A DNA stretch of 64,000 nt. Source: Pyropia yezoensis (lineage: Eukaryota; Rhodophyta; Bangiophyceae; Bangiales; Bangiaceae). The stretch covers positions 9,538,375 through 9,602,374 of the forward strand of contig CM020619.1 in NCBI GenBank assembly GCA_009829735.1. The letters run 5' to 3'. Under the pieces are notes generated by a model. It was not told the DNA's origin. It ran no database searches and was given only the letters and a program-made list of their open reading frames with translations. Positions within the stretch are counted from its first letter, which is position 1. Each line of letters starts with the position of its first letter. A program made the translations under genes and the position numbers. Shown here in pieces: positions 13,101 to 60,880 of the stretch.

Positions 13101-13940
13101 CAAAAGGCCACGACACCGTACCACCCGCAGACCAACGGGCAGGTCGAGCGGTACAACCGCACCATCGTGAAGCAGGTACGCCACTACGTCCAAGACAACC
13201 CGCGAATGTGGGATGAGCTACTGCCCATCCTCACCTACGCGTACAATACGCAGCCGCACCGGTCGACCGGGATAGCCCCCTTCGAACTTGTCATCCCGCG
13301 ACGCATCCCCAACTTGGCGGTGCATAACCCACCACCGGGCGTGCCCATCCAAGCCCAAGGCGGACCCAAGGACGGGTCCCCCCTTGCGGTGAAGCGAGGA
13401 TTCATGGCACGCCTCCGCAGGATCATCCCGAAGGTCGCGGAGGCCATGTGCAAGACGCAGCAGCGCTACAAGCGCAACTACGACAAGAACGTGTCCAACC
13501 GGAGCCGGGACGTACGGACGGGCGACTACATCTACGTGAAGTCGCACCTCCGCGCCCACAAGTTGGACGGCTTGACGGTCGGACCGTTCTTGGTCCTTGA
13601 CCAGGACGACAAGACCTTCGTCATCCAACAAGGCGACGAAGAGAAGAGGGTGTCCAAGGACAAAGCGACACCCGCCCCGAAACCGGACGCCGAGGGAGGG
13701 GACTCCACCCCACACGCCCTGCTCAGGGACAACATCAACTTGTCCGAACGACCGACGGTGGAGGACAACTACCTCATCGACAAGCTCGTCGGCCTCCGCT
13801 GCGTCGACGAAGAACACGAAGCGAAGGTGCGATGGTGGGGCTACGAACGGGACGCCGACACTTGGGAGCCACTCAAGGCCACCCGTCCCTACAAGGGCGG
13901 GGCACATCGACATTTGGTGCTCCGCTACCTCCGCGCTTAG
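10165..13940 (+). pseudogene. Element B protease and pol (RT-RH-INT-chromodomain)
   Basis: The protease motif LDTGAGINLIR is at about 10,245. The long pol frame carries RT motifs FCVDYRRLN (about 11,245) and FYLDDVIVF (about 11,540), an RNase H beginning FVVDVDACADQVGS (about 11,990), a zinc-binding integrase N-terminus (HPGANR ... CAACAQSR, about 12,670-12,790), integrase core blocks DRFSKVVRT and NGQVERYNR (about 12,920 and 13,135), and a C-terminal chromodomain with VRWWGYERDADTWEPL at about 13,825-13,875. The chromodomain would tether integration to modified histones, by analogy with characterised chromoviruses. Only the protease-proximal part looks disturbed. Confidence 0.85.
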
Positions 13941-29251: not shown

Positions 29252-32200
29252 TCACGTTAAGGGAGGGCTGTTAGGGTCTATCTCATTCCGGGCACAGTAC
29301 GCCCGGACCTTCTCAGCGGGAAGATCCTCCACATACTCCCACGTATCATCCTTGGCTTTGTAGCCAAACCAACGCACCCTCAACATGAGGCGGTTAGTGT
29401 CCCCATCCCATCCGTGGTCGATGAACTTATCGAACACGTACTCCTGCGGGCCCTGTTTGGCCGCAGGCAGTGAGGGGAGGCGCCACGCTTCCAAAGCACG
29501 CGCCCAAGCTGGGTCGCCTGCAGGCGGTGGTGCAACTTTGACCACGTCCTGTCCGTTCACTGTGCGGACCCCATCGTCACTTTCGATGGTGAAGCGTCGC
29601 TCATCAGTACGAAGGACCTGGTACGGCCCCTTCGTCTGGAATACCAACTTACCCCCAGTTGGGGTGTGTGAGTGAACCAGCACCCAGTCACCCTGTTCGG
29701 GGACATGCTTAGCATTGCGCACCTTTTTGTCAAAGGTACGCTTGTAGCGCTTTTGTGCTTTGTCCATCTCAGCCCTGACTTTAGGGATGAGGTGTTCCAG
29801 CCTAGCAGCGAACTCCGCCTTACTCTCAGTAGGAGTAGGCGTACTGCCACTATCCTCCCTAGTTGGGAGCGACCGCCGCACGGCAATAGACCGCACACGA
29901 CGGGGGGTCACAAAAGCGAGGGGGACTTCCCCGGTAGATGAGTGAACCTGCGAATTGTAGGCGGTAGTAAGAATAGAAATGTATTGGTCCCACGTCTTCA
30001 CGTGCTCACTCACATAGTGGCGCAGCTGCCTAACAATAGTTTTGTTGAAGCGCTCCACCTGCCCATTAGTTTGTGGGTGGTAGGGGGTGGCATAGTTTGC
30101 CTTTACCCCCAACATATCCAGCACTCCCTGATACAGTTCGGACGCCAATTGCGGTCCATTTTCTGACAGTGTACGGTCGGGGATGCCATACGCGGCAACC
30201 CAGTGATCTAGGAAGGCTGACACGACCGACATGGCCGTGATCTCTGCCAGTGGGATCGCTCGCGTAAGTTTCGTGAAGCGGTCACAGATGACCAGGAGGT
30301 ACTGGTTGCCCTCCTCGGTCACTGGCAGTGGCCCAAGGATTTCCATCGCCAATGCAGCGAAGGGCTCCTTGGCCGGGAACAATAGCATAGCCGTACTAGG
30401 CCGCCGTTCCATCAGACGGTTCTGTGCACAACTTGTGCAGGCAGCCACCCAACTGTAGATGTCCACCACCATGGACGGTCAGTAGTATCTGGTCCTCAGG
30501 GTCTGGTACAGTTTACTAGACCCCAGGTGTCCACCCGTGGGAGCGTTGTGCTCCCTCTCAAGGATACTGTCCTTGAGGGATGCGGGGACGACAAGTTGTT
30601 CGGTCCCCTGGAATACCCCCCTCCTCATGAGGAGGCCATCGTCTCCCAGAAAGAAACGCGTCTCCACCACTGTATCCAGTGTATCCCTCTGCGACTTGCA
30701 GAAGGGATCCTCGGCCTGGGCCTTCACCACCTCGTCTAGGGACAGGGGCAAGTACTTCTTGTTCCCTGGCGCCTCGGGGTTCAACGCTTGACCCGAGCGC
30801 GTGACTACCCCCACGATGGGGATGTCCTCATCGACTGGGTTAGTGTCCAGCCCCTCGGTAGATACCCGAGAGAGGCCGTCGGCAAGGGCATGTTGCCTGC
30901 CAGGTCGGTACTCAATATCAAAGTTGAAGGGTGCCAGTCGCACCCTCCACCGATTGAGACGAGTGTTCGTACAGTCCGTCTTGAAGATGAACTGCAACGC
31001 GCGGTCGTCACAGCGGATGAGGAACTTCTCACCCTCTAGGTAGTGACGAAGTGACGTCACCGCCCACACCACTGCGAGTCCTTCCAACTCGGTGACTCCG
31101 TAGTTCTTCTCGGCCGAGTTCAGCCCCTTACTGAAGTATCCCACCGGCAAGTACTCCTTGTCCGGCTGCTGCTGAAGCAACACACAACCAAGTTGGTCGT
31201 AGCTAGCGTCCACATCCAGGATGTAGTGGCCTCCCAACCTGGGAATAGCCAAGATGGGGGGCTTCAGCAGAAGGTCCCGAAGAGTCTCAAAGGACTCCTG
31301 CTCCACCCGACTTGGGGGAGGCAGGTTCTTCGGTAGCGTTGGGCTCACTAGCTCATTCAACGGCTTCGCCACCTTGGCGAAGCCCTTGGTGAAACTTCGG
31401 TAAACGTTACACATCCCGAGGAAGCTCCTCATCTGGGTCTGGGTCCGGGGGTACTGAGCCTTACGAATGGCCCTCAATTTCTTCTCGTTAACACTGAGAC
31501 GCCCCGGACGGACAACATGTCCCAAGTGCTCCACCTCTTGAGTGAAGAGGTGGCACTTATTCGCCTTCAGCGACACACCGGCGTCAGCAAGTAGCTTGAA
31601 CACCTGGCCAAGATGGCCAATGTGTTCCTCCGGACTTCGGGAGAACACAATGATATCGTCTAGGTACACAAGACAGATCTGCCACCGTACTCCGGCCAGA
31701 ATCATGTCCATAGCGCGCTGGAAAGTTGCCGGCGCGTTACACAGACCAAACGGTAGGCGCTTGCACTGGTAGGTACCACAGTGACAGGTAAAGGTAGTTT
31801 GATGCCTGTCCTCCGGGGCAATGGGAATTTGCCAGTACCCCGCGTTACAGTCCAGGGTAGAGAACACGTTTGCCTCCCCCAGAGAGTCCAGACAGTCGTC
31901 CATCCTAGGTAGAGGATAACTGTCCTTCACCGTGCTCTCGTTGAGCTTACGGTAGTCGATACAAAACCGGGGGGTCCCATCAACTTTGGGGACGATAACC
32001 ACCGGACTCGCCCACTCGGCGTTGCTGGCCTCGATCACATCGAGGGCCTCCATGCGAGCAACTTGCTCCTTAACGTGGGCCCTTGAACGAGGTCCTCCCC
32101 TATACGGTTGTTGGCGTATAGGGGGTGCACCGGGCTTCAACTCGATCCGGTGCTGGGTGGCTCTCATGAGTCCCAATTGACCATCCCACAACTTGTGATA

Positions 32201-33230
32201 TTGGTCCAAGAGGCGTTCAACTTGAACCCTCAACCTGGGGGGGACACCCTCCATGTTCACATGGGGTCGAGGAGAGGCGGCCGACTTGGCTTGATGCTTC
32301 TCCTTTCCGGACTTCGGGTCGCTACTTGCGCCCGCGTTGAGGGTGACCGCTACTACCGGTCCCTCGTGTTGGTCGATATAGCCGAACTTGGCTCCCGACT
32401 TGAAGTACTTGGGCGTCGGGCTCAGGTTCATCACCTGTATCCTCCACGGGACTCCGGCTTTGGAGTCCATCGTGCCAAGGGCAACATGCACTTGGTGCTT
32501 GCGAGCAAGACGGGGGTGAGGGTGCACCAACCCGTTCCCCGTACAATCAGTTACAACGTCAACGTGCGCCACCGAGTTGGGGGGCAATGTGACTTTACGG
32601 GCTAGACGCAGGGTAGCAGTGAGCCCTTCCCTCACCGAGCAAACAGGCTTCGACTGTGAGACTGTCACAGGAGCCACAGACTTTCCCTTACCAAGGATGG
32701 GGATAGTCTCCCCATTCATCAACTTGACCCAGTACTCAGGGCCACAAATCAAAGGCACTTGTGTAACAACATAAGGGGTACCCAGAAGCAGGGGTACCGA
32801 TATATTCTCAACTACACCATAGGTCACGTCGACCTCATGGGTCCCCAACCTGGTTGGTAGGGTCACGGCACCAACGATGGGAAGTACCCCACCATTGATG
32901 TCAATCATATGGTCAGCTTTGGACCTCCAGCGTTGGAGCTTCACCTCCTTGGGTAATAGCGACTTGCGTATCAAGGAGGCTCCTTACCCGGTATCAAGTA
33001 CAATACGGGCACAACAGGCGCGGCCGGGGGCAAGTTGCACCCGTCCAGCCACCTGGAAATTCTCACCCGTCAGCACCGCGATGACCCGACGTGGGTTTAC
33101 GTTCTTGGGGAGTCCTACCCGAGGTGGGCGGACTCCCTTAGGTCGCTGCAGTATCCGGCACGGTTGGCTCGTCCTCCTGGCCCACTTGGCCGAGGCTGCC
33201 GTTGTGAGCTTCGGACGACCAGCCCCAACG
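29252..33230 (-). pseudogene. Element E pol region (PR-RT-RH-INT-chromodomain)
   Basis: Minus strand: protease (ARIVLDTG motif near 33,000); RT with FCIDYRKLN (about 31,950) and VYLDDIIVFS (about 31,660); RNase H with YILDVDASYDQLGCVLL (about 31,220); integrase zinc part (CTSCAQNRLM, about 30,430), core (CDRFTKLTRA, HPQTNGQVERFNK near 30,050) and a chromodomain (VRWFGYKAKDDTWEYVEDLP near 29,340). It is a canonical chromovirus arrangement and close to whole, with about two breaks. Confidence 0.87.
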
Positions 33231-33231
33231 G

Positions 33232-35106
33232 TCATTCGTTTCCCGCCGACTTGGCGTCCGAATCTGAGGGCGGGGAGGAAGACGACGAGTCCGAGGACGA
33301 CGTGTCCGCCTCCTCCGCCGAGGGTGTGGCGACCGCGACGACCGGTCGAGACCCACCCTCGCGGCGTGAACGTACTTCGTTCGTAGCCGACTTCTTACTC
33401 GCATTCCTAACAAGTTGTTGGATGCGTTTACTCAACTTGGGGCAATCATATGCCCAGTGTCCATCGGAGTTGCAGTTCCAACACCGATGGTCTGTTCCGG
33501 GAGGGGTCTTCCCAACTGGGGAAGACGAAGGGATTTCCTGGGAAGTTCCCACGGCAGCTACCACCCTCTCCTTGCAGATTCGGCGTGCCTCTCTCAACTC
33601 TCTGGCCTGGCGCGCCTCCCCCCGTTCCTTGGCCAACTCGGCCCGACGCTCCTGGCGTTGTTCCTCTCGCAACTTGCTGTAGGCCTCGCCTCTGCGATAG
33701 GCGAACCTGGCCAACTCGGCCAGGGTCGCCCGGGCAGTGTTATGCTCCCGGGTCTCCATCCGGACTGACCAATGGAGTCCCTCCACAAACCGACTCTTCA
33801 CCACAGCTTGTGGATGAAGAAACCCACAAAGATTGTTGATCTTACGGACTCGCTCCGCAAAGGACAACTCGTCCTTCGCCTCTTCCTGATGGGCTTGCGT
33901 AAACTCCTCGACTTGAGAAGCCAACGCAGCCTCATCAACCATGGCTCTCAACAACCAGTTGACGAGCTCCAAATAGGACGTCACCTCTCCAGCGCCTCCA
34001 CTTGAGGAGCTGGGCATGACGGACATAAGTTCTGTCCGCAGGTCGCCCTTCGTAAACTCCTGTAGCATGTAAAAAGCCATGCCTTCACTTATGGCATTGT
34101 CGTCACAGGCTTTTGTGAAACGACGTAGGAACTCAAAGACACGGAGGGGGGGAGTTCCATCCCACTCCGCTTTGTGCCCAAGAGAATGAAGTGCATTCTT
34201 CTTGGCACGGCCCATGGCTCGGGCCTTGTCAGGACCATACGCCACCGACTTGTTGTGGAGGGCGTAGGTCTCAAAGTCAAAGATCCGCTGGTAGACCGGG
34301 TTGGCTACCTGGATCTTGGGCGGCACCTCACGTTGAGGGAACAGCCGCTGTGGCACTGGGGTAAGTTGACCCCCAGCGCCTGTAGTCTGGTACGGCGAGC
34401 TTGGTGTAGCCGCCGGCATTTCCGAGGGGAACTCCCCCGTGAAGGGCGTACGCCCCACCGAGAATGGTGCGGCTTCCACGTTGGGAGTCACAGGGGTCCC
34501 CCCCTGTTCGGGGCGACCCGGAATAGGCGTCAGGAGAGATTCCCCCTGCGCCTGCGGGCTCGAAGGCCCCAATCCGGTCTGGACATTAAGGCCATTTGGC
34601 AAACTCGCCACAATCTGATTCAGAATAGTATTCGTCATCGTGACCACCAGGTCCGGCAAAGTCTGCCGCAACACATTGGTCGCCTCCCGACGGACAGTTT
34701 CCGCGAGGAGTGGATTGACAACTCCACTTGAGTCTCGGTCCGCCTCCGGGAGTCCACCTGAGGGGTAACCACGTTCCTCAGGGGTCTCAACCGGGGGCAT
34801 GGGCGCGAGCCCATCGCCGACCAACGGAGGTCCGCCGTCCTCCGAAAGCCTAGTTCGCGACGGCTCCAAGCCAAAATTGGCTCCAACCCGAGTGGAACCC
34901 GCGGAGACAGTCCTCACCCCTTGGGACGTTCCCGTTGAGTATACCACACGGTGGCCAGACTTCGGCCCACCCACATCAGAAGTGTCACCCGAATGAACTC
35001 CCGACTGAGTCGGGGTGGCCTGTTGCCCGCCCGTACTTCCAGTCCTGCTGGCTTGAGGGACCTCTAGTCCCTCTGCGACTCCAGAAAAAACCCACCTGTG
35101 TCTCAC
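33232..35106 (-). CDS. Element E gag
   Basis: A 624-aa open frame: a Gly/Ser/Pro-rich N-terminus, then a helical capsid-like region (about residues 285-450), a long charged helix (KLREEQRQERRAELAKERGE) and a CCHC knuckle CWNCNSDGHWAYDC near residue 560, with an acidic Ser-rich tail (SSSDSSSSSPPSDSDAKS). It would form the particle and bind RNA. The N-terminal part is also preserved in the truncated copy at 43,986-44,573. The frame is open throughout. Confidence 0.8.
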   Translation of the reverse strand: MRHRWVFSGVAEGLEVPQASRTGSTGGQQATPTQSGVHSGDTSDVGGPKSGHRVVYSTGTSQGVRTVSAGSTRVGANFGLEPSRTRLSEDGGPPLVGDGLAPMPPVETPEERGYPSGGLPEADRDSSGVVNPLLAETVRREATNVLRQTLPDLVVTMTNTILNQIVASLPNGLNVQTGLGPSSPQAQGESLLTPIPGRPEQGGTPVTPNVEAAPFSVGRTPFTGEFPSEMPAATPSSPYQTTGAGGQLTPVPQRLFPQREVPPKIQVANPVYQRIFDFETYALHNKSVAYGPDKARAMGRAKKNALHSLGHKAEWDGTPPLRVFEFLRRFTKACDDNAISEGMAFYMLQEFTKGDLRTELMSVMPSSSSGGAGEVTSYLELVNWLLRAMVDEAALASQVEEFTQAHQEEAKDELSFAERVRKINNLCGFLHPQAVVKSRFVEGLHWSVRMETREHNTARATLAELARFAYRRGEAYSKLREEQRQERRAELAKERGEARQARELREARRICKERVVAAVGTSQEIPSSSPVGKTPPGTDHRCWNCNSDGHWAYDCPKLSKRIQQLVRNASKKSATNEVRSRREGGSRPVVAVATPSAEEADTSSSDSSSSSPPSDSDAKSAGNE

Positions 35107-35298
35107 CAGTATTCAAAGGCACTGAAGTACGTGCGTCACCCGTGTACTCCCCGGACGACGGGGGGTCCGAACCGGCCATGTTGGCTGACGATCCGTATGA
35201 CACGGTCCAAGACCACCGTCCCTCTGAGACGGAGGGCCCCGTACACCCGGGTGCACCCGGAGGTAAAGTTTACCTCTATCCCCTGCTGCTCCACCAAA

Positions 35299-46681: not shown

Positions 46682-47010
46682 GTGGTGGGCGAGGCCCGAC
46701 TAGGATACCCAATGAGATACTTTGGTTACTTGAATTATCCGGTATCGTTTGTCGTGCATTGTCATGGGCCCCGAGGGCTGCCGTTCTGGTAGAACGGGTG
46801 CCCGATCGAAGATGCGCTCGATCTTCCGTTCTATGTCGATCTACTTTGTTCTTGTTGTCTCACTTACTAATGATGCCACGCACCAGCACAGCATCGATGC
46901 TGGTGCTGGCGAGCGGTCTGGCCGGCGCGTGTTGGGCCCAACACGGACATGCCCATGGGAAGGTGGTGGTGGTTGTACGGACGGGGTGGCCGCCCTCCCC
47001 CCGCAACATA
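46682..47010. other. Spacer left of the KDZ element
   Basis: No gene is supported. It includes a CAGCATCGATGCTG palindrome near 46,890. Confidence 0.4.
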
Positions 47011-47029
47011 GATAATAGCAGGGTACGAT
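47011..47029 (+). repeat. Left terminal inverted repeat of KDZ element
   Basis: GATAATAGCAGGGTACGAT, followed directly by CGTACCC, which makes a palindrome centred on GATC. Confidence 0.55.
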
Positions 47030-47609
47030 CGTACCCCTCCGCTGTAAGACCTCGGATCGTAGGGTCGGCCCCGGCCTCCCATTGGTCCAATCTACGTCCG
47101 TTCCCAGCCCTTCCGAGTCCCAGCCCTTCCGAGCCCTCCCAGGCGTGCCCCAAAGCAGCCACGTGCAAGTCTTAATGAAAACAAACCACGTGGCCGCACC
47201 GTCCCGACCGCCGCCGCGACCGCGCCGCCCCGTCGCGTCCGCCACCATCGCCGCCGCGCTGCCCGACGCCTCCGCCATCGCCGCCGTGCTGCCCGACGCC
47301 TCTGCCGTCGCCGCCACCGCCGGCCGCTCCCCGCTACATCTGGCCCTCAGCAGCTGGCTTTTGCGTCGCTGATCCCGCGTGCCGTCGCGGCGACCCGCGG
47401 TGGCCGCGATCCGTCGACGTGACAGCTGCCTCCCGTCCCCCGTGCGGCCGACGGGGCCGGTGTGGCGCGCGCGCCACCGCTGCCGCTGGCCACGGGCACG
47501 GATCTGGCGGCTCCGCTCCCGCTGCTGGCTTCCGGAGCCGCAGCCGGTGCAAACAAGGCGCGAGTGGCAACGCTGCCGCTGGTCGGCAGAGCGGCGCGGG
47601 CGGCGCCAA

Positions 47610-48150
47610 AGCGGCTGCTGGCCGGCGGCGTGGCGCGGGAGCGGCGGCGGTGCGGCTGCTGGCCGGCTGCGCGGCGCGGGAGCGGCGGCGGTGCGGCTGC
47701 TGGCCGGCTGGTGCGGCCGCTGGCCGGCCGCGCCCGGCGTGGGCGGCGCCCGTGCGGCTGCTGGCCGGCAACGCGACGCGGGAGCGGCGCCGGTGCGGCT
47801 GCTGGCGGGCTGCGCTGCGCGGGAGCGGCGCCGGTGCGGCTGCTGGCGGGCTGCGCTGCGCGGGAGCGGCGCCGGTGCGGCTGCTGGCCGGCCGGTCCGG
47901 CTGCTCGCCAGCCGCGCGGCGTGGGCGGCGCCGGTGCGGCTGCTGGCCGGCGGCGCGGCGCGGGAGCGGCGGCGGTGCGTCTACTGGCCGGCGGCGGGGC
48001 GCGCGAGCGGCGGCGGTGCGGCTGCTGGCCGGCTGCGCGGCGCGGGAGCGGCGGCGGTGCGGCTGCTGGCCGGCTGGTGCGGCCGCTGGCCGGCCGCTCG
48101 CGGCGTGGGCGGCGCCCGTGCGGCTGCTGGCTGGCTGCGCGGCACGGGGG
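47610..48150. repeat. 41-bp minisatellite, about 13 copies
   Basis: The unit contains GTGCGGCTGCTGGCCGGC then TGCGCGGCGCGGGAGCGG. The period of 41 is not a multiple of three, so every frame cycles through the same three peptides (RLLAGCAARER, GCWPAARRGSG, AAAGRLRGAGA) and stays open on both strands. The long ORFs seen here are therefore artefacts. 47,030-47,609 shows no supported gene. Confidence 0.85.
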
Positions 48151-48177
48151 CGTCCGGTGCTGGCGTCGGCTTGCAAG

Positions 48178-50511
48178 ATGTTGGACGTGTTGGCCTCCGC
48201 TGAGGACGCTGGCAGCATGTTCGGTTTGCAGGCAACCCACCCTTTTGTCTGCCTCGCTCGGATATTGCAAGCGTCGTGCGACGAGATTGAGAGGTGCACC
48301 TCGTCGGAGGATCTTCTCACCGTCACTGCTTCTCAAGTGGACGTCCCAGGCGGCGTCCTCCTTTTTGCATCGGGCTTTCTTGACCGTGCTCCTGCGTTGC
48401 GGCCGTCTGCTCAAGTAGAGGCTCAGTTGGCCGTAGGTGTCGACAGCATGGTGAGCGCCGTTCGGCAGGTCGCTACCGAGAACAAGAGGCGAGCTGCTGA
48501 TGGCATCAACGGTGACGCAGGTGCGCCTGAAAAGGACGCAATGGCGGATGGTCGTGTCACTGGCGCTGATGGTGTTGCTGCCGGCCCGTTTCGAGGCGGT
48601 ACTGACGGCAAAGATACCGACCGCTTTGGAGACGACGGTATCGGTCGCGCTGGCGGCGTCAGTGACGATCAGGGTGCTGCAGCGGACGATGAATTCGGGG
48701 ATGTTGCCGACCTGACGGATCTGTTCGGTCCGAGCGATGGAGGCGATGCCGGGCCGAGTGTCTCTGTTGAGCGCACGCGTGACCAGCCTGCACGACCACC
48801 CGACACGCCTTCTGCTGCTCCAGAGAAGCCAGCACGGAGCGACTCTGCGGCAGCTCCTGCAGCTCGTGCAAGCGGCAACGCGGCAGGCGTCTCCGGCTCC
48901 GGCGCTCACGCGCCTATTTCTGACTACGTTCTTCCTTCCACGTTTGTGGTTCCCGGGTTGACTGTCGCGCCAGCGCGCATTCAACTGCCCAGCACTCGTG
49001 GGGGTGTCCGGTTTGTGCCCCAAGAGCCCGCTGAGGAAGTAGTCAACATCCCTGACTTGACTGTGCAGGAGACTATCAAGCAGCTGAGCGTGCCGACGCG
49101 GGACGACTCGCTGCGCAACAGGCTTGTGGAGTTTACGTCTCTGTACAAGTACGTGATCGACCATCTTGTCAAGCGGTCTTGTGTGGACCCTGAGATGCGG
49201 GACACGGTCAACCACCCCTACGTGGATGTCACGCCTGATGCCGTCAGGGGAAAGAAGGTGAACTTCCTATTCACCGAGGCCAAGCGCGTGTCCGTTTTGT
49301 TCCCGACGTTTCGAAACAGCCGCGCCACCAAGGTGACTTCCTCATTGGCTGTGGTTCAGCTCATGAAGCATCGTGGCGATCCTTTTTTTTTGTGGCTTCT
49401 GGGCCTGTTCTCAGGTGGTGCAATCGCGCCTGTCGACTACGCCTAGGCGCACAAGGGCGGTCAGGGGTCCGACGAGAAGCTCAACGCGCCTGCAGCACCT
49501 GCCAGCCGCTCGAAGGGCAAGAAGCGGGCCCGAGATTCTCCTCGGAAGGGCACTAACAGCGTGCTGGAGAGCCAGGACGGGTCATCGGGCGCGGCAGCAG
49601 CATCTTCTTTGCAGAACCAGTCGGTTGTATCTGGAGAGCGCCCGGAAGCCCCGGGAGTTGTTGCGCCCCCTGGAGTGCCAAGCCAGACCACCGCCAACGA
49701 CGACACTGTTGCTTTCATCTCTGCCGGATCGGCTCGCGTTCAAGTGGCGGGCCAGCTGCTGAGAGACGGGAAGATTGTCGGCACTGGCACGGTGCATCCA
49801 GAGTTTGACCTGTTCCACTCGTTCCCCTCACGGCCTTCAATCGTCACTGTGCTTCTGCAGCACGTGGTGGCTGGGTGTGGCGACATCATCTACCCGTTTG
49901 GCCAAGATGCACTGCTTTGTCTGGAGCGAGGCAATCCTTCCTCAGTTCCTGTTCCATTGAGCTCCATCATGTCCGGGTACCGCATCGCATGGCCCGTGTC
50001 TGACATAGGGTACGTTTTTTCGACGAATGATGGTATGTGTGCTATCCAGAGAGCCGCGCCTGGTGCATGCGTCCATTCCGATGCTTTGCTTTGAGTACTA
50101 ACCAGGTATTGCGATCACTTTCCAAGCCTCAGGCCACGCTTGCGACTGTTTGATCGTCCACCTGCGGAAACTCAAGCGGTCCTGCTGGGGACTGCTTGTG
50201 TCTCGAGAAAGGCTGCGCCGACGCTGGCGACAGACGCAGGACACCAGTCTCAGGAGGTGCAGCTTGCGTCGTTTGAGGAGAGCATGCCGGCTGTGGAGGT
50301 GTTTGCACTGGTGTGTGCGACTGGACATGCTTCGTCGGACTACCCGTTCACCTCGGCGTTTTATGAGAGCAGCGCGTACCGTGTGTACAGGAAGAGGCAC
50401 TTCCCAGACATGATGCTTCCTTCCACCATGGGAGATTTACCGTGTGTCGAGGGGTCGACTAGGGGAGGTCGCCACTTGGTGCTGTGGGATGCGAGATTCA
50501 TCGCGCACTGA
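48178..50511 (+). CDS. Spliced accessory gene of the KDZ element, function unknown
   Basis: The start is taken at the ATG at 48,178, just after the minisatellite (protein starts MLDVLASAEDAGSMFGLQ). Exon 1 ends at 50,009 and exon 2 starts at 50,106. The 96-bp intron begins GTACGTTTTTTCG and ends GAGTACTAACCAG, a textbook branch site, and the join keeps frame. An in-frame TAG at 49,444-49,446 interrupts exon 1; a CCTAG there could instead be an unrecognised acceptor. The region has an Asp/Gly/Pro-rich linker (about 48,480-48,900), a basic patch SRSKGKKRARDSPRKG, and a C-terminal fold with DGKIVGTGTVHPEFDLF and SGYRIAWPVSDI. That part recalls, weakly, domains accompanying plant CACTA-type transposases. 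It converges on the helicase gene, with a 59-bp gap. Confidence 0.5.
50010..50105 (+). other. Spliceosomal intron with TACTAAC branch site
   Basis: 96 bp, GTACGT donor, TACTAACCAG acceptor region. Frame is preserved across the join and both flanking frames stop inside or near it if unspliced. Confidence 0.75.
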
Positions 50512-50570
50512 TGCCAAGCACGTGACGGACAAGACAACAAAACAGGCGAGCGCCTCGTCAAGAAAGAGAC

Positions 50571-53197
50571 CTATGCAGCGGTGTGCGCACAATAAAAGCT
50601 CAATGCGTCTTGGCAAGTTGCCACATGCTCACGCCGCAGCCCTCGTACCAAAAGGCCATCCAGCAAGCGACACCGAGAGAGCGCCGAGTACACCAGGCCA
50701 TTCTCCCGCCATCGCAGCTGAGAGAAGTCAACGGCCAGGGTGTCCAGCGTAGACCCTTGAGCACGGTGAATCGTCATGGCCCGCCCCAGAGTCAGAGGGA
50801 TGCACGCTCGAGAAGCAAGCCGCTGATTTGTGTTGTCCACGAAGTCAAACGCGACGTAGCCAACGTTGACGCGTTTCCCATTGAAGCGGCACTCGACATG
50901 GGACGGCATGCACCTCCACACCACCCCCTGGGTGGCAGTAGGCACGCCCGCAACGGCGCGAGTGGTCAATACAACAGCTCCTGGCTTGACGGTGACGCTG
51001 TCTGGCGCCAGGTCGCGCACCTTCCTGCGCGCGTACGCTTGCCTTCCGGGTGCGTGATCACGTCGTTGAGCGCGTCCTGACAACGGTAGGTCGTCTCGCA
51101 ACCAGGCAGCGCCTGCATGCTGCTGCGATTGAAGTGCTCGACTTGGCTCCTCAATGCACACAGTTGAGTGTGCTTGCGCCATTGCTCGTCTGAGACGCCA
51201 ACAGACGTCGAGTTAAGCACCACCGGGTCCGAGTCCGTGAAAGTTCCAGTCCGAATGCGATCAAGGCAGTCTGCAAACCAGGAGTTGCCCGTCTGTCTGT
51301 GCGTACCAGACAACATAACAAGCACCCCGAAACGCGACAGCAACGAGTCTCGAAAAGTGCGACACATGTACACAGGATGGTCGTTGTTCTGCGCCGGAGA
51401 AGCAACAGGACCAAGCTGGAGCGGGTCTCCACCCCCTGAACAGCAAAGAGCATCCAACGACCGGGAGAGTAATTGGAAATCAGTTGGCTGTCCGAGGTGA
51501 TGCCACCACTCACGGTCTGCAGTGACGCACAATATCCACATGGAAGCCAAACGAGCAGACTTCGAAAAGCCGGCCAGATATGCTAACGTACCAACAACTT
51601 GGCAGCCACCCCACGGTAGGGCCTGCTTATGCGCCGCAGCCAGTTGTCTCACGACGTACTCCAGCACCACGAACCAGCGTGTTGGCACTTGTGGTAGCTC
51701 GTCAATAAAGATGACTGTCACGTTCTTGATGCGCTCCTTCACGCGGAACTTGGAGCGCACGCTCGCCAGGATGACGTCCTTGGGCAACGGGGCAATCCCC
51801 ACCTGCAAGAACTTGTGCAGCGTCTCCCCGTCCGAAAGCTTGGCGGCGTGCGTGGTCCACGACAGGACGCCCACGCGGTCGGCGCCATGCAAACGCTGCG
51901 CGTGCTGAATCGCCCGACGTAGGATAACAGACTTCCCGCTCCCTGCCCGGCCAAACAGACCCACATTCTTGCCGCTCAGGAATGCCTCCCACGCCGTCTG
52001 CTGCGACGTATCTAGGTCAAACGCGATACTGCTCAGCAATAGGACGCAGAAAGAACAGGAGCACACGTGGAGAAGACCTTGAAGGGAGGCGCACTCAGGA
52101 TGCGCACAGTGGATGGCGGTGGCCAGCGCACGCAGGGCGAAAAGCGGAAACCGATGAAGGCACCAAACGTGAGGATGGTGGCGGCCACTGCGGCAAGAAG
52201 CGGGGATGCAGGAACACAAGAGGCCATCGACGCGGGATCGGTATGAACCGCCGTGGAAGGGCGGGGGGGGGGGGACGGGAGATGTCGCAGTACCACACCG
52301 GTGCGGATGGGGGACGTAGACAGACGCCTCTGCGAGCTCTGACAGCGGCAAACAGGCAGTGGACCTCGCCGCCCTGCGTGAGGCTGGAACGAGCGAGTTC
52401 CTGCTGAGGATCAGTGGGGGGAAGGTGGCACGACCGGCAGTCCTCTGTTGTCAAGGGAACGAGGGAGCCGCTACGTGGCGCGTGCACAGCATGCCCACCA
52501 CAGCTCGACTACAAACAGCGGAGGACACCAGAAGGGGAGCCTACGTGCGTCAGCAAGCCCCATCGCGCTCGTGCCCCGGAGGGTGGGCATTGACAGAAGC
52601 TGGCGCGAGTTGACGAGAGACACACACGTCAACAGAGGTGCGCTGGACACGTCCTAGCAAGGCAAAAATTCCTCCCGACTGTTACCTGAAGGCGCGCTCT
52701 GCGTACACAGCAAACAGGCGAGCGACCGTGCGGAGAAGGCCGTTCCCGCGAAAACCTACGAAGCGCGCGAGCTCAGAAAGGCTCAGCTGGCCAGTTGATG
52801 GAAGCGGATGTACTTCAACGGCGGCATACGGACAGAAATTACACCCAATTGACGTCATCCACGCTCCATCGATGCAGGACCGTGTGATCCACGGCGCTCC
52901 AGGGCATGATTTTGGGGCTTCTGGGGCATCGTTCAGGCTGGTGTTGGAGCCGATCGGAAGACCATTGATCTGTGGGAAGGGTGCTGGCCTGCGCGCTACA
53001 CACGGGCTGGCCGGTAGTCGTGAGGCAGGGGACACAGTGAGCGGCTGCCGCGCCGTACGGCAGTACTGAGGAGCCCGGGGCAGTGGGGTGCCGATTTGCT
53101 GCTGGCGCGCACCACCTCCCGCATGCCCGACGGCCACCCGCCCGAGAGCAGGCGCCACCGAGTGGTGCGCCCGCGAGTCGGTCACCGCCAACTGCAT
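50571..53197 (-). CDS. Pif1-family DNA helicase, spliced
   Basis: Exons on the minus strand: about 53,197-52,686; 52,028-51,592; 51,435-50,571. Intron 1 (657 bp) runs from GTAACAG to GCTGAGCAG and intron 2 (156 bp) from GTACGTTAGC to GCTGTTCAG; both joins keep frame. Intron 2 removes an open 52-codon insert and restores GGCQVV-GGGDPLQLGPV. Helicase motifs: Walker A GRAGSGKSVILRRA, Walker B VIFIDELPQ, motif III GDPLQLGPV, a GTHRQT block, AMTIHRAQGSTLDTL and VYSALSRC. Pif1 enzymes unwind DNA 5'-3'. One frame offset lies near 51.04 kb between PEGKRTR and RKVRDLAPDS. The N-terminal exon has a CxxC but no recognised nuclease. No Rep domain is seen, so this is not an obvious Helitron. Confidence 0.75.
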
Positions 53198-54856
53198 GCA
53201 CTCGAGCCGGTCAGCGGTGGAGGCGGCGGGAACGGCCAGGCCCCGACGGGAGAGGTGGAGGGGGCGGGGTGGGGGGGAGGGGGGGCGTTGCCCATCCCGC
53301 GGCCTGCCGCCGCCGTGTCACCGACCGCAGGCGGGGCCGGCGGCGGCGCCAGTCCCTGGATTGTTGGCCGTGTGGGACCGAGCACACAACTGGCACTGCC
53401 GTCCCCCCGTTGACCGGGCTCACCAGTGGAGGTCGCCAGATGTCAGAATTGGGCACGTGCTGCGGCACGGCCACCACACAGAAGTGCAGGCCGCTCCATG
53501 CAGCGCTTGGCCACCGCGACCAAGCGAACCTGTGCCAACGCACCGCAGTCAGCGCCCACAGAGTACGGCCCAGGCCACCACTGCTAGTACCAATAGGAGC
53601 GTTACAACGACGCGCGTGCGTCGTGGCCGACAGCTGGACGCTGCGACGGCGCGCGGTGCGGTGAACGGGCGGGAGCAGCCGCACCACGCGCATCCGCTAG
53701 AACGACCAAACGAACCGCTCTCGTCTGCAAGGGACACCGCGGTTGGCGCCCGCCACACTGCCGCACCCTTCCTGGCCACTGGGGGCAGGGGCAGCACGTG
53801 CCACCGACGGATCACGGTAGTGGCCGCAGCAGCCGTAGTGCTCTCGCGGGCTGTGGCGATGTCGTGCAGCCCGTCGAGCGCATAGGACCAGCTGTACCAG
53901 TCGACAGTGTCAGCGGTACCGCTTATGGCTGTTATTCATGGGGGCTGGGAGTGACTGCCACGGCTGGCCCTGTGATCCACGCTACCACCTCAGTTAGCGT
54001 CCTTTATCAATCGTTGCACTGTCTTTGTCTTTTGCACAGGCATCTACTACCAGTGCGGGTCTTCGGCGATCGGCTGGCACATCCCCCACTTCGTGCAGTC
54101 CCACCGATAGCACTCAATACGCAGCCACCCCCCCTCCACATTGCGCTCACCCCACTCACCAACGGCCAAGCCGCTCAACACCTGTTGCAGCACACTCGCG
54201 CACGAGTCGTCCGCCAGTGGTAAAAACATATCGACCAGCAACGCAGCGACGAGCCTCCACCCGGGTGTACAAACCGCAACTGCACCCAGCACGCACCCCC
54301 TACCCTTTCCACCTACTGACGCCACCCGCACCATTCCGGGGTACGCCCTCCCCGGACGCCCGTGCTTGCCCCCACTCGCCGACACCGACCACCAGGTCCC
54401 TAGCAGCCCCGAACACGCACCCCCTACCCACTCCACGTACTGAAGCCACCCTCACCCTCCCGGGTTATGCCCTCCCAGGACGCTCGTACTTGCCTCCACT
54501 TGCCGCCACTGACCTCCAGGTCCCCAGACGGCACCTGCACATCCTCCACCTCCCAAGCATGCCATGCGCCTCTCCCGCAGCTTGGTACAGAGGTGGTGAC
54601 CAAAACAGAGCGGGTCGCATGTGCTCAGCGGTCTGCTACAATCCCTGGCGTGAACTTCACCGCTGCGAAGGTGGAACGGCGGACTGGGTAATCCCTCAGG
54701 GGACGGGCTTTCGCAGAAAATCAACAGCAAGAAGTTGTGAGAGCTTCGGTGCCAACATCGCAACAAACTGATTCAACGCAAGAGAACACGCGCCGTACGG
54801 CAAAGACTACACTACTCCAAAAAATGGAGCGCCTGCTAGAGAGAAAGCCTCTTTTG
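53198..54856. other. Stretch without recognisable gene, with a two-copy 124-bp repeat
   Basis: Open frames occur on both strands but lack domain or convincing codon signal. A tandem duplication of about 124 bp starts at 54,291 and 54,415 (each opens acgcaccccctaccc). It could hold further 5' exons of the helicase or be non-coding interior of the element. Confidence 0.4.
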
Positions 54857-55198
54857 TCACATGCCACTGAGCAGACGATGCACCAGGTGCAGCGTCGACT
54901 CCTTCTGGATGCTGCAGTCCGACAGCATCCACCCGTCCTCCAGCTGCTTGCCCGCAAAGATGAGGCGCTGCTGGTCCGGCGGGATTCCCTCCTTGTCCTG
55001 GATCTTGGACTTGACGTTGTCAATCGTGTCCGACGACTCCACCTCGAGGGTGATCGTCTTGCCCGTCAGTGTCTTGACGACACTCTGCATCCCGCCACAC
55101 AGGCGCAGCACCAGTTGCAGCGTCAACGCCTTATGGATGTCGTAGTCAGACAGCGTCAGCCTGTCCTGCAGCTCCGTGCGTGGGCTACCACTCCCCAT
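54857..55198 (-). pseudogene. Degenerate ubiquitin tail (1.4 units) at the transposase 3' end
   Basis: Minus strand. The first, partial unit reads [20 protein letters not shown] then CGG. The second is full length: [20 protein letters not shown] ... [20 protein letters not shown] ... [11 protein letters not shown]. It keeps the lysines at 6, 11, 27, 29, 33, 48 and 63 and Ile44, but differs at positions 54-60 (WMLSDCS for RTLSDYN) and ends RLLSGM instead of RLRGG, so it could not be conjugated or cleaved in the normal way. The frame is offset from the transposase frame, and the two ORFs overlap by about 14 bp. It is either a captured polyubiquitin piece or a decayed C-terminal ubiquitin fusion of the transposase. 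Confidence 0.85.
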
Positions 55199-58100
55199 CC
55201 AGGTCCCATTCCTGGTCGCTCAGGACGTCCGCGTCGTCAAACTCGCGCTCCTCGGCAGCCGGCGGCACTGCAGGCTCAGCAGGCGAGTAACCACAGCCGC
55301 AGCAGCAAGGATTGCGAGAGAAGTAAAACTGGCGGTAGTTGTACTCCTCTGGCAGGCGGTCGCGAGTGGTAGCGCGGGCGTGCGCCATGACATTGTAGAA
55401 GATGTTTTCGAGCTGCAGGACGTTCAGGTACTCGTCTTGGCCGCACGACCGCAGCGTCCTGCGCATGAGGTTGATCGGTGCGTTTCGCTGCTCGTGCGCG
55501 ACGGTGTTGGTGCCGTCCAAGCCCGTGTACGAGCGCGGGTGCAGCGCGTCGCTGCACAGATGGTTGACGATATGAAACAGGTCCGACACAATGGTGACGA
55601 GCGCCAAGAAAAACGCCAGCTTCCCGAGCGCCGAGCGCAAAGCACCACACCCAAAATCATACACGATGAAAGAGAGCAATAGGGCGAAGCGACTCAAGAT
55701 TGTGTTGATCGCGGCCGGTGGACCCTCGCGCTTGTCGAGCACAACGAAGCCAGTCATTTTCGGATGCGCACACCCGCAGCAAAAGGTGAGCGTACCAGGA
55801 GAGAAGTCTTTGTGGATGTCTTGGTAGTTCTTTGCACACGTGCCGAGCTGTCCCTCTTCAGTTGCGCCGAAAGCTCCCGGACGACAAAGCGGCATCCCCG
55901 GAAAGAACGCGCCTGTGACCGCAGGGTCGTCCACCGCGTCCGGAAAGTCCTGCTTGAAGCAGCTCCGCAGCTCCGCCGCACTCAAAGACGGGAGGCCGTA
56001 CCGGCTGCGATACGCAGCAGCACTCCCATTCTGACCAAGCCGCACTACGTCGTAGTCCTCCACCACCGACTTGATCGACAGCAGCATGTCGACGACTGGC
56101 CGTCGAATCCGCTCGAAAAGGGAGCTCTCGGACGTCACCGCCATGAGGAACGAGTAAGGCATCCGGTTCTCGCGCAGCAGCTCGGTGACGAGCTTATCGT
56201 TCTCATCTACGTCGTCCGCGTAGTCCTCACGCGACGAGGCAAGCTCAAACACAGATCCCATCTTCTGGACTGCCCCGTTCATGCTCAGAAAGTCGCTGAG
56301 CTTCGACAGTGCTTGGCAGTGACAGGGCTTGAACATATTCACCACAGGGTCCACAGCGACCGCCAAGCAAGAAGAGGACACGTCCTTGTAGGACGTCACA
56401 CCCAGACGCAGTATTTCAAGAAGAACGCAGCGGGGGTCCCCAGGTTCGTTCGTTGTCCGGTCAATGTGCCGTTGCCTTGCAGTCGAAGCAGGAACCCGTT
56501 CCGGCAGATTCCCGACGACAACGCGACCCCCTACGGCATTGCCTAAAGCTGCGTGCCTTAAACGTGCACGAGCATTCCCACCCAGTGCATTGGCAGTAGG
56601 CGCCACGCCTCCAGCGCCTCCAGCCGCAACGCCACCAGCACCAGCTCCGGCAACAGCACCAGGCCCGCCCACGGCATGGGCAGCAGGCGCCGCGCCTCCA
56701 GCGCCCTCACCTGCAGCACCACCAGCATCTGCACCGGCAACAGCCCCAGGCCCGCTCACGGCACCTGCGGCAGGTACGTGGCCTGGATGGCCAGCAGCGG
56801 CAATACCGCCAGGACCTGCAACACCAGGACCGCCCGGGCCATTCACCACACCAGCTGCGGGCGCAAGACCGTCGTTGCCGCCAACGGCGCCGCCTCCGTG
56901 GCCACCAGCGGGAAGCTCCCCTCTCACCAAATTTGCTCTCCACGTCTCGAGACGCACAAGAGTTGCCCGATGAGTAGCAATGGCTTTGTTGGTGAGACCG
57001 CGTTTGCCAAGCAGTCGCCTGGTGAACGCTACAATAGCGTCGCACAGGGAAACAGAAGCATGCGGCAGCGACCACACGCACGAAATGAGAGAGTGGAGGC
57101 TGCTCAAGTTGCTCTTGGTGGTGGAGGACATTATTTCCTCGCTTGGCAGAGCCTCGGGGCAGAGAAACGAGAAGGCCCTCTTCGCGGAGTTGAGTTGGCC
57201 ATCTTTGATAACGATGGCCTTGGACGGCTGCTTCAGCACCATGCGAATGAAGCGCCGCCCCCACTCAGACGAGTGAATAGAGGCGGCGTCAACAGTTGCC
57301 TTGACGGAAGACACAGGTTGACTTGGCTGGGAGTACCTACTGGACGCCAGCCGCTTGAGGAAGCCAAGCCAGATCCCGTCCGCCGTTACAACACGGTAGC
57401 ACCCGTCTTTGTCCTGACACACGGAACAGCGAAAAGCCCGCATAGGTGGGTCATTGCACAAAAGGCGTACGGCCAGAAAGAAGAGCGAGGTGATGTTCTG
57501 GCGTGACTTGAACTTGACGTTGTTCGGGAAGCACTCAGCGTCTCGAAGGTCCATGTACCTGTTGTACCACCGCCTGTAGCAGGCCCCGAATGTGGAACCG
57601 CTTGTTGCCATCTCACGTGCCATGTCGCGCAGGACGGCGGCGGTCCCCGCCGTTGAGCAGGTCCATATGACGACTCCAGCGCCTCGCCCGTCGGGGTAGA
57701 TCCGTCGTTGTCAGTGAGGGCTGGAACACACGAATGACTGCAGCTCCATTGCGCAATAGCCCAAGCTGCACATGATTTCCCCGGCCTCGCTCGTGATGGT
57801 TGAGGGGTCAGGAGTCGCGCCGCAGGTCGGACAAATCTTGGCAGCCTCGACGACCAGCGCCTTGCCCTCCTTCATGAGCTGGCACACACGCGCATCCACA
57901 GTCACCGACTTGGGGCAGTTGTAGAGAGGAATCGGAAGCTGCGACCGGGCCGCGTCCATGCCCGCGTCGTCCTTGGTGCCGGCAGGTAGCTTTCTAGATG
58001 CAGCGTCACCACGCCGGATGCTGCGGCAACGCACGGCGTGAACACATGAGAACCCTCCAGCGGTGTCGCAGAACGAGCACGAAGTTGTCTTGCGAGCGCA

Positions 58101-59123
58101 GATCACAGGAGCTACAACCTTGCAGGGTCCAAGCCCAGACACAACAACGGCGAGAACCCCTTGGCCTGCGCGGAAAGTCTCAATAGGCCCCTCGACGTCC
58201 CATTTCCCCGTCTCGGGTGCTTGGGCAGCAGATGCTGGGCCGGCTGCGCCTGCACCCGCTCCACCCAAGTTGAACACTTGCGGGATCTGCACGCGGAAGC
58301 TGCTGGAAGACACACCCATACGAGAGCAAAGGCGATGAAGAGCTTGGATGAAGTTCTTGGAGTGTACGCACGTCGCGTCCTTGGAGCTTGAGCGAAGACG
58401 ACCGACATGAGCAGTCCTCCTCACGCACGAGCAGCAGACGACTCCGACGTCGCTGAGCCAGGTGGTCACCACCGTTGGTGACCGGCTTTTTCTCTCCCCA
58501 TTAGCGTTAGCAGCGGTTCCAGCAACGTAGCGCGACAGAACGCCGAAGGCATGCTTCAACGCCCAAACTTCTCCGCGATAGAACTGATCAGCGCGACTTC
58601 TCAGCATGGAGGCCAACTTCTTCTTGACCTCGGGCGGCGGGGGGGTAGCGTACAGGCGCCTGACGCACATGTCAAAACCGCACCGCATGATGGCATCACA
58701 CATAGCTCGAGATATGCCGACGCCGAGGGTTTTCAGCGTGTCACGTCGCGTGTCAATGGGCCGACCCCCCTGGCCCTTACGTCCCCCGGTCCGTCGTTGC
58801 TCCACTCGTCCATTCGCGTCCCCCGCCACAGGAGGCAGGATGACGCCGGCCTTGTCGTACGCGGCCCTCGACACAGCGGCCACCCGACGCTTGGCAGTGG
58901 GCGGCAACGACTTGACCCGGTACACTTTTACTGACAGTAGCGCGGTCGACGACGGCAATGGTAACTGAGGCGGCAGCTCCCCAGCCAAGTGGGCCGCCAG
59001 CGCAGGAGATACAGCCAAGAAGCAGGAAGACCGTCGAAGCGTCCCATAGTTGGCCATGCGTTGGTGCTGGGATTGTTGAGCCCTTGTCACAGGGTTGCCT
59101 GAGCTACTCGGCTTGAGTGCCAT
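55185..59123 (-). CDS. KDZ-superfamily transposase with cysteine clusters, one in-frame TGA
   Basis: Two ORFs (59,123-57,711, 470 aa; 57,623-55,185, 812 aa) share one frame and are separated by a TGA at 57,711-57,713; the 87 bp after it stays open ([20 protein letters not shown]). The N-terminal part has cysteine clusters [30 protein letters not shown] and ICPTCGAT. The C-terminal part carries the catalytic core: [10 protein letters not shown] (Asp about 656), [13 protein letters not shown] (Asp about 681) and NTVAHEQRN (Glu about 711), the D-D-E arrangement with D-x-F-H-x-x-N-H typical of KDZ (Kyakuja-Dileera-Zisupton) transposases. A Gly/Ala/Pro linker spans about residues 235-350 and a Cys tail NPCCCGCGY is near the end. 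The TGA may be a mutation, since no good intron explains it. Confidence 0.75.
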
Positions 59124-59299
59124 AGGGAGTTACGAACGTTGAGATCCGCAGCCCAAGCACCCGCCTTCACGTTCAGAAGTGGGGACGCAGCGGCATGAGG
59201 TGCGCGGGAAGCGTCCCCCAGTCGAAGGATGAACCCCAAAAACCTGCCTGTCAGCGGAGCAAGAGAACGCACTCATGGCAGGATGACGCCGCAGCATCG

Positions 59300-59815
59300 C
59301 CCAGCAGCTCGTCCCAGCACGCAGAGGAGGAGCCTCCACCCAAAGATAGCGAGAGGGGGATGCAGGACAGCTAGGTGGAGGGGGGGCGGGCACAGACCGC
59401 AGCGTGCCGCGGCCGCTCGCCCAAGGCCGCAGAGGACGAGGAACCACCCACGGACAGCAAGAAGGGGATGCCGGACAGCTAGGGGGGGGGGGCGGGCACA
59501 GATCGCAGCGCGCCGCGGCCGCTCACCCAAGGCCACACGACGAGCCACCACCCACAGACAGCGAGAGGGGGATGCCGGACAGCTAGGTGGATGGGGGGCG
59601 GGCACAGACCGCAGCGCGCCGCGGCCGCTCGCCCAAGGACACACGACGAGCCGCCACCCACAGACAGCGAGAGGGGGATGCCGGACAGCCAGGTGGATGG
59701 GGGGCGGGCACAGACCGCAGCGCACCGCGGCCGCTCGCCCAAGGCCACACGACGAGCCACCACCCACAGACAGTGAGAAGGGGATGCCGGACAGCTAGTG
59801 AGGGAGGGCGGATAC
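59300..59815. repeat. 104-108-bp minisatellite, about 4.5 copies
   Basis: The marker GGACAGC recurs at 59,365, 59,473, 59,577, 59,683 and 59,789. Units carry GCCGCGGCCGCTCGCCCAAG. It lies between the transposase 5' end and the right terminus. No gene is supported in 59,124-60,143. Confidence 0.85.
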
Positions 59816-60143
59816 AGATCGCACCTCGTCGCGCCCTGCCGGACGTGGAGAAGAGTGAACAGGTGTTGGCGGAGGGGGGGGTATGCGGATCGCACGCGGA
59901 CTGGAAGGGCACGTCCGCGACCAAGACCGGCGTGCACGCGAACAAGACCAAGGCGATGTGCGCGGCGCAGTGGCCGCGTGCGACGGCAAGTCGCTGGACC
60001 CCCCCCGTCGAGGTACCGAAAATGACCCCAATCATGTGCATGAGTGACCACCTGTGTGGAAGCTGCTGTCAGCATGCCACGTACACGCCGACCCGCAATC
60101 TCCACCTGATCTCCCCTAATTACCGTTAGTCACCCTTAACCCG

Positions 60144-60199
60144 GAATCGTACCCTCTTAGTCCAGAATCGTACCCTCTTAACCCAGAATCGTACCCTGC
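60144..60199. repeat. 21-bp subterminal tandem repeats (three copies)
   Basis: GAATCGTACCCT begins at 60,144, 60,165 and 60,186; the last copy runs into the right terminal inverted repeat. They are plausible transposase-binding sites. Confidence 0.8.
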
Positions 60200-60206
60200 T
60201 TTTATC
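60188..60206 (-). repeat. Right terminal inverted repeat of KDZ element
   Basis: Reverse complement reads GATAAAAGCAGGGTACGAT, one mismatch from the left end. Confidence 0.55.
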
Positions 60207-60880
60207 GGGACTCCCCCCCATGCCCCCCTCTCCCCAGCTGGGCCGACCGTTGGGGGCGGAAAGGGGGGGGGGGGGGTGTGGTGATCATCATTCCCGGTGG
60301 GTGCAAGATCATGATGATTCCGCGCTCGCCCCTGGCTGCGGGGTGTGGGAGACGAGCGACAGTGGACAGGCCCTTGGTGGCTGGGGGGAGGGTCCCCTCT
60401 TCGAAACGCAGCAACCGCCAGCTGCCCTGCCCCCTCTCTCCTTTGCTCTTCCCCTCTCTCCGTTCCTCTTCCCCTCTCCCCCCCCCCCGTCCCACCCCCA
60501 GTTAAGACGCCCGGAGAGCGGACACTAGGGTTCAGAGCGATTCCGGATCAGCCATTGGCCCAGAGCGCTGTGTCAGGAGCAAATATGGCATATATTGAAA
60601 CTTGTGACCCTATTCCAAGGTTCAAACGACGTGTCTGATGAGAATTGGGGCACAGCTGCCTAAGGCGCCTGCGGTGGGCCTCTCGGGTTGAAAGTCGACA
60701 TGGAATCGGCACATTTCTTCTTGATGGAAGAGCGCCTAGAGCTTTGTGGGCATCAGCACAGCAATGGCTAAGTCACACAGGGGAGCCCAAGAGAGGGAGA
60801 GCAGGTCGTCTGAGGCGGAACGGGGTACTTGCACGGAAACAAGAGCAGCTTGATCATTCCCCCGTATCCCAGGAGGTCTC
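60207..60880. other. Spacer right of the KDZ element
   Basis: C/T-rich tracts (60,420-60,500) and a poly-G run. No gene is supported except that minus-strand sequence down to about 60,740 may hold the 3' end of the next gene in another frame. Confidence 0.4.

Follow-up and report, generated by a model that had tools for sequence, protein, structure and literature searches.

What is the 13.2-kb unit that lies in a 64,000-nucleotide stretch of the red alga Pyropia yezoensis, and do the genes enclosed in it serve the unit or merely ride along? The stretch, hereafter called the window, is C2:9538375-9602374 in a genome of 107,475,971 bases in 11 contigs. An earlier note on this DNA had described the unit as a KDZ-type transposon holding a transposase, a Pif1 helicase, a ubiquitin remnant and a convergent spliced gene. 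We consider it probable that the unit represents a defunct copy of a large DNA transposon of the cut-and-paste kind with a KDZ-like transposase, belonging to a red-alga lineage, with the mechanism proposed below included in that judgement.

Copies and ends of the element

The window element has a second copy at C1:3747621-3760801, which aligns as a single piece to window positions 47003-60213 with 96.8% identity (341 differences among 13,134 aligned positions in a base-by-base comparison). Identity between the two copies breaks off sharply at each end, and nothing further aligned within approximately 2 kb to either side. The 19-bp inverted ends are present where the earlier note had placed them, GATAATAGCAGGGTACGAT at 47011-47029 and its inverted form with one mismatch at 60188-60206, although the element itself extends 7 bp beyond these limits on either side; we replace 47011/60206 with 47004/60213 because the two copies agree over 47003-60213 and the outer tip seen in the relatives lies 7 bp outside each 19-mer. 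The reiteration of the end motif, claimed for both ends, is found at the right end, where three 21-bp units carry it (the 21-mer at up to three mismatches occurs 3 times in the window against 0.00 expected by chance), whereas the left end holds one copy of the unit, overlapping its own inverted repeat to form the palindrome GGGTACGATCGTACCC.

The same ends are spread over the genome. At up to three mismatches the 19-mer was matched 29 times and its reversed pattern, taken as the control, 3 times; sixteen of the 29 make up 8 inverted pairs spaced 3.4-13.2 kb. A degenerate form of the motif gave 58 matches against 16. An exact search for the 12-mer GCAGGGTACGAT found 7 genomic sites against 6 for its control, and four of the seven are the inverted pairs of the window element and its second copy. 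A chance origin of the inverted match, which the earlier note had thought possible for the match taken alone, is therefore excluded by the second copy together with these counts and pairs.

When the ends of the relatives are aligned side by side, they fall into two kinds. End A, the left end of the window element, combines a tip resembling CAAnAnA with the core and a continuation that is either palindromic or of TTGCCCGA type; end B has a GAGTnnn-like tip, the core, then reiterated units of about 21 bp, and is the right end. All nine elements with both ends read pair A with B, namely the window copy, the C1 copy and the seven listed in Table 1. In the 25.2-kb and 16.6-kb elements one end each was found at three mismatches, a level at which the control gives matches as well, and both were admitted on tip, continuation and flank. 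E3 resembles E4 and E5 at 95-99% across long stretches, and these three look non-autonomous because they gave no match to the proteins of the element; a 601-base probe of the K4 interior gave no gene match.

The flanks at the tips of the nine elements define a target-site duplication (TSD) of 7 bp: matches cover 52 of 63 positions at this length, whereas a 6-bp reading fits 14 of 54 and an 8-bp reading 30 of 72. Three elements match at 7/7 (E4, K4 and the one at C1:29.4M) and three at 6/7 (the C1 copy, the window copy and E1). With a one-base shift allowed, an element's own flanks match at a mean of 6.2/7 and mismatched pairs at 2.6/7, none of the 72 mismatched pairs reaches 6/7, and none of 200,000 random pairings equals the true one. 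An early reading of an 8-bp duplication was dropped after the nine elements fitted 7 bp. Shared inverted ends and a TSD, by which a DNA transposon of the terminal-inverted-repeat type is recognised, are thus both found in this family.

Two further places with the end motif stand apart from the nine. At C1:3153373, a single GCAGGGTACGAT followed by a degenerate unit was tried as a related element and rejected, the adjoining 19.8 kb read giving no match to the transposase, Pif1 or the convergent gene. At C2:21128269-21143496, an inverted end-motif pair (21129538, 21142210) lies between mirror-image matches to the left repeats of the element, with a shorter pair inside it at 21138108-21141874; this locus looks like nested or palindromic elements.

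Gene order across diverged loci

Between its ends the element follows a layout that recurs in the genome: from A to B, a plus-strand gene running inward, a Pif1-type helicase gene facing it tail to tail, and the transposase gene upstream of Pif1 in the same orientation (Table 1). Both the helicase, supported by a PF05970 match, and the convergent spliced gene reported earlier are present. For Pif1 an intron at about 51437-51595 is inferred from homologs, which measure 331-508 amino acids, two of the ten coming from Porphyra umbilicalis (P0022, P0023). The plus-strand gene appears to have an intron of about 70 nt ending at TACTAACCAG (50096-50105), with an ambiguous donor position; five homologs were found among 8000 candidates scored, one of them from P. 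yezoensis, and its product gave no significant match in Pfam and none in a PDB sequence search.

A DNA search located at least six Pif1 loci in the genome. The last exon of the plus-strand gene lies tail to tail with Pif1 at all six, including all four diverged ones, across which this exon is 45-54% identical. The transposase is found upstream of Pif1, in the same order and orientation, at four of the six (two of the four diverged ones); these four are the two near-identical copies, C1:35.94M and C2:7.90M. At C1:35.94M the three genes show 43-65% amino acid identity and lie within element K3, whose A and B ends were both found, and at C2:7.90M the distance from transposase to Pif1 is 3.2 kb, equal to that in the window element. 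The check that the earlier note had proposed, a search for other loci with inverted ends near a transposase, has been run, and ends, transposase, Pif1 and the plus-strand gene do occur together elsewhere. Because Pif1 and the plus-strand gene recur in diverged relatives, they are not a cargo peculiar to this element, and the recurring three-gene order argues for a function without singling one out. Within K3, about 12.7 kb of mostly unread sequence (C1:35931194-35943963) separates the A end from the first match to the plus-strand gene, and may contain a nested insertion.

The ubiquitin remnant is also real, with a PF00240 match, and looks like a piece captured from host polyubiquitin and the incidental part of the element. 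Over about 320 bases it is 86-87% identical to host polyubiquitin arrays on three contigs, and further, shorter stretches match at 85-90%. The C1 copy carries the fragment at 99% identity, a search of the 15 kb read at C1:35.94M did not reveal it, and the two near-identical copies are the only ones in which it has been seen. Its second unit ends in LLSGM, not in the conjugating Gly-Gly. The fragment follows immediately 3' of the stop codon of the transposase, and its open frame overlaps the end of that gene in a different frame. A ubiquitin-transposase fusion was considered and rejected: most homologous transposases share the same ending (...DW), and the ubiquitin frame differs.

Both copies of the element are broken, by different lesions, and are fossils. 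In the window copy the transposase and the plus-strand gene each carry a nonsense codon, and Pif1 has lost its start codon and has a frameshift near 51044. In the C1 copy a frameshift and two nonsense codons interrupt the transposase, another frameshift the plus-strand gene and a late nonsense codon Pif1. Reading the TGA at a conserved cysteine of the window copy as selenocysteine was also rejected, as the second copy, which has other lesions, has an ordinary cysteine codon there.

Table 1. Features of the window element and the other paired-end elements (window positions unless a contig is given)
Feature	Position	Strand	Remarks
Left TSD	46997-47003		CCCCCCG, 6/7 against right CCCCCCA; C-rich, weak alone, 7-bp length taken from nine elements
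A end	47004-47036	+	tip CAACATA, core GATAATAGCAGGGTACGAT (47011-47029), palindrome GGGTACGATCGTACCC (47021-47036)
GC-rich tandem repeats	47578-48160		unit of about 41 bp; inside the stretch most different between the two copies
Plus-strand accessory gene	48178-50511	+	homologs P0010-P0014; in-frame stop 49444-49446 in window copy
Pif1-type helicase gene	50571-52027	-	PF05970, E=1.7e-12; convergent with plus-strand gene
Polyubiquitin fragment, apparently captured	54857-55198	-	about 1.4 units; PF00240, E=7.2e-32
KDZ-like transposase gene	55185-59123	-	about 1.3 kaa (thousand amino acids); nonsense codon 57713-57711 in window copy
106-bp tandem repeat	59330-59823		4.7 copies; subterminal on B side
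B end	60135-60213	-	three 21-bp units (60135-60197), core 60188-60206, inward-read tip GAGTCCC (60207-60213)
Right TSD	60214-60220		CCCCCCA
E1	C1:23.438M		4.2 kb; A/B pair
E3	C1:32.872M		3.9 kb; A/B pair
E4	C1:40.687M		3.4 kb; A/B pair
E5	C2:3.110M		4.9 kb; A/B pair
K3	C1:35931194-35956369		25.2 kb; A/B pair
K4	C1:22483531-22511326		27.8 kb; order B...A; TSD 7/7
Unlabelled element	C1:29394634-29411242		16.6 kb; A...B; TSD 7/7

Affiliation of the transposase

A protein search with the transposase gave nine relatives among 8000 candidates scored, including P0003, which is I4F81_001800 of P. yezoensis. The cysteine cluster CxC4 (PF18717) was matched by six of the ten family members at E<=10, with a best E of 1.8e-5; P0002 and P0007 were without a match in one profile scan and the window open reading frame (ORF) in another. 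The KDZ catalytic domain (PF18758) gave no profile match in the window pieces scanned. In the 3' ORF, residues at amino acids 111, 685 and 740 lie in conserved blocks and are candidates for a D/D/E catalytic triad: D111 is present in 10/10 rows of the alignment, and D685 and E740 each in 8/10; the two exceptions, P0008 and P0009, either stop before these positions or cannot be aligned at them. A PDB sequence search with the transposase gave two weak hits without meaning (E 0.2 and 0.51), and a scan of viral contigs for relatives matched 16 stretches, none of which was confirmed as a relative.

The transposase is KDZ-like, and we assign it to none of the groups Zisupton, Dileera and Kyakuja. 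We prefer this label to KDZ because no family member matches the KDZ domain and the TSD is 7 bp. The affiliation proposed by the earlier note thus survives in part: a cysteine cluster below its cut-off and a D/D/E-like pattern of candidate residues speak for it, the unmatched KDZ domain and the length of the TSD against it.

Zisupton, Dileera and Kyakuja elements, which together make up KDZ and occur in fungi, fish, and green and brown algae, resemble the present family in being large DNA transposons with inverted ends and accessory genes that can reach giant size, and in having a very large transposase with a cysteine cluster of the CxC type, which in the window family is sub-threshold. They differ in that the window family has a recurring Pif1 and a protein of no known family, and leaves the KDZ domain profile unmatched; a TET/JBP profile, scanned for the same comparison, gave no match in the ORFs scanned. 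KDZ giants measure up to 30.3 kb in Ectocarpus, and an active 31.7-kb element is described in Chlamydomonas (PMC12477816); the TSD is given as 8 bp in Zisupton and Zisupton-1_PGr (PMC12730594). A TSD of 8 bp is reported for Zisupton and Dileera, against 7 bp here. The giant KDZ elements of Ectocarpus are likewise long, with an often broken transposase, presumed movement in trans and accessory genes mostly of unknown function; their host is a brown alga and ours a red one, and the word 'Pif1' is absent from the main text of that account (PMC12477816). According to the same account, red algae have giant EnSpm elements that bear accessory genes. In the literature as searched by titles and abstract openings, which leaves subscription papers outside, we found no Pif1 in a KDZ element and no KDZ element in a red alga; both words occur in PMC6396904, on a fungal genome.

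Rival readings and a possible mechanism

Several observations weigh against the main reading. The best CxC4 match scores 25.1 bits against a curated cut-off of 26.9, and the Pfam KDZ domain is matched by 0/10 members at E<=10, a count bounded by the sensitivity of the profile. The TSD is 7 bp and not 8 bp, the longer form being matched at 8/8 in E5 alone (3/7 there at 7 bp); E3 and K3 match at just 5/7 positions, and the window element has an imperfect TSD rich in C. Between the two copies, the ratio of nonsynonymous to synonymous substitution rates (dN/dS) is near 1 for the transposase (0.91) and the plus-strand gene (1.06); the value for Pif1, 0.42 (p=0.02, without correction for the three genes), speaks for the main reading. 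The 4.4 kb and 2.0 kb read upstream of Pif1 at C1:29.40M and C1:27.44M, respectively, showed no transposase. At C1:29.40M the Pif1/plus-strand gene pair is, moreover, inverted relative to the element ends, and since end A lies between, a transposase would have to sit on the other side, within the 11.4 kb separating the plus-strand gene from the B end. At C1:18.54M a B end and a transposase are 0.4 kb apart, and the 6.9 kb read beyond the transposase shows neither Pif1 nor the plus-strand gene, so that universality of the module is not established.

The unmatched KDZ domain would suit a transposase of another superfamily, or of a novel superfamily that shares a comparable zinc cluster, in which case the KDZ label would be wrong. 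So would the 7-bp TSD, a length reported for hAT7 (PMC12730594); Dada has TSDs of 6-7 bp and zinc motifs in its large transposase (PMC3706591). Small RNA genes are the insertion targets of Dada families; in the window family the flanks of the nine elements are dissimilar and a tRNA gene search across the window found none, snRNA genes not having been searched. We regard another superfamily as distinctly improbable, given that CxC4 is a KDZ-associated cysteine cluster matched in most of the family and that no other transposase profile matched in the Pfam scans. Helitrons contain Pif1-type helicase domains, use a Rep nuclease and are not known to make a TSD. A Helitron remnant inside or beside a KDZ element could account for the helicase, and we hold this to be very improbable: no Rep profile matched in the 20 ORFs tested, the family has inverted ends and 7-bp TSDs, and Pif1 is a separate gene whose position is fixed in diverged elements. 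Extremely improbable, in our judgement, is a host segmental duplication or a set of several nested elements imitating one unit. The abundance of Ty3/Gypsy pieces in the window would favour it, but a single unbroken alignment joins the two copies, nothing more aligns in the 2 kb to either side, and the same ends with TSDs bound other inserts.

The more serious contender concerns the role of the accessory genes. Pif1 and the plus-strand gene may be passengers that an ancestor acquired once and handed down, playing no part in transposition, as would fit the accessory genes reported in KDZ elements of fungi and brown algae (PMC12477816), the locus C1:18.54M in the part read, and the plus-strand gene's dN/dS. 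Neutral cargo, however, is expected to decay or scatter, and the pair retains its order and orientation at every one of four loci diverged to about 50-60% amino acid identity, with the transposase beside it at two; the ubiquitin piece, by contrast, turned up in just the two near-identical copies. On balance we find the passenger explanation unlikely. The chance is somewhat short of even, and the reading so offered tentatively, that Pif1 and the gene of no known family are instead core, constrained machinery of a red-alga transposon lineage of DDE type, which would move by helicase-assisted cut and paste, stagger its cuts by 7 bp and fall outside the KDZ subgroups described so far; the arrangement suggests that Pif1 may help the element to move, or may aid DNA repair after movement.

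Under the main reading, of a cut-and-paste transposon with a KDZ-like transposase, the transposase would bind the reiterated GGGTA(C/G)GAT-type units and cut with a 7-nt stagger, and Pif1, perhaps with the protein of the plus-strand gene, would unwind or clear DNA at the ends or while these long GC-rich elements undergo repair synthesis. Shorter relatives that share the ends would be mobilised in trans, and the ubiquitin piece would have been acquired from a host polyubiquitin gene as a passenger. Accessory genes of giant eukaryotic transposons are readily mistaken for passengers; here the order and orientation of Pif1 and the plus-strand gene are kept at diverged loci, sometimes beside the transposase, making a role in transposition directly testable. 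For KDZ-like elements in a red alga, the ends, the target-site length and the gene order are now defined.

Several Ty3/Gypsy-type retroelement pieces in the rest of the window lie at 1819-3240, 10503-13940, 19188-20693 and 29252-35112, with reverse transcriptase, RNase H and integrase domains and, in one piece, a chromodomain and a zinc-knuckle ORF. Elsewhere in the genome, C5 (10333 bases) contains tandem units of about 718 bp, in which about 120 bases match the GC-rich left part of the element at 76-77%.

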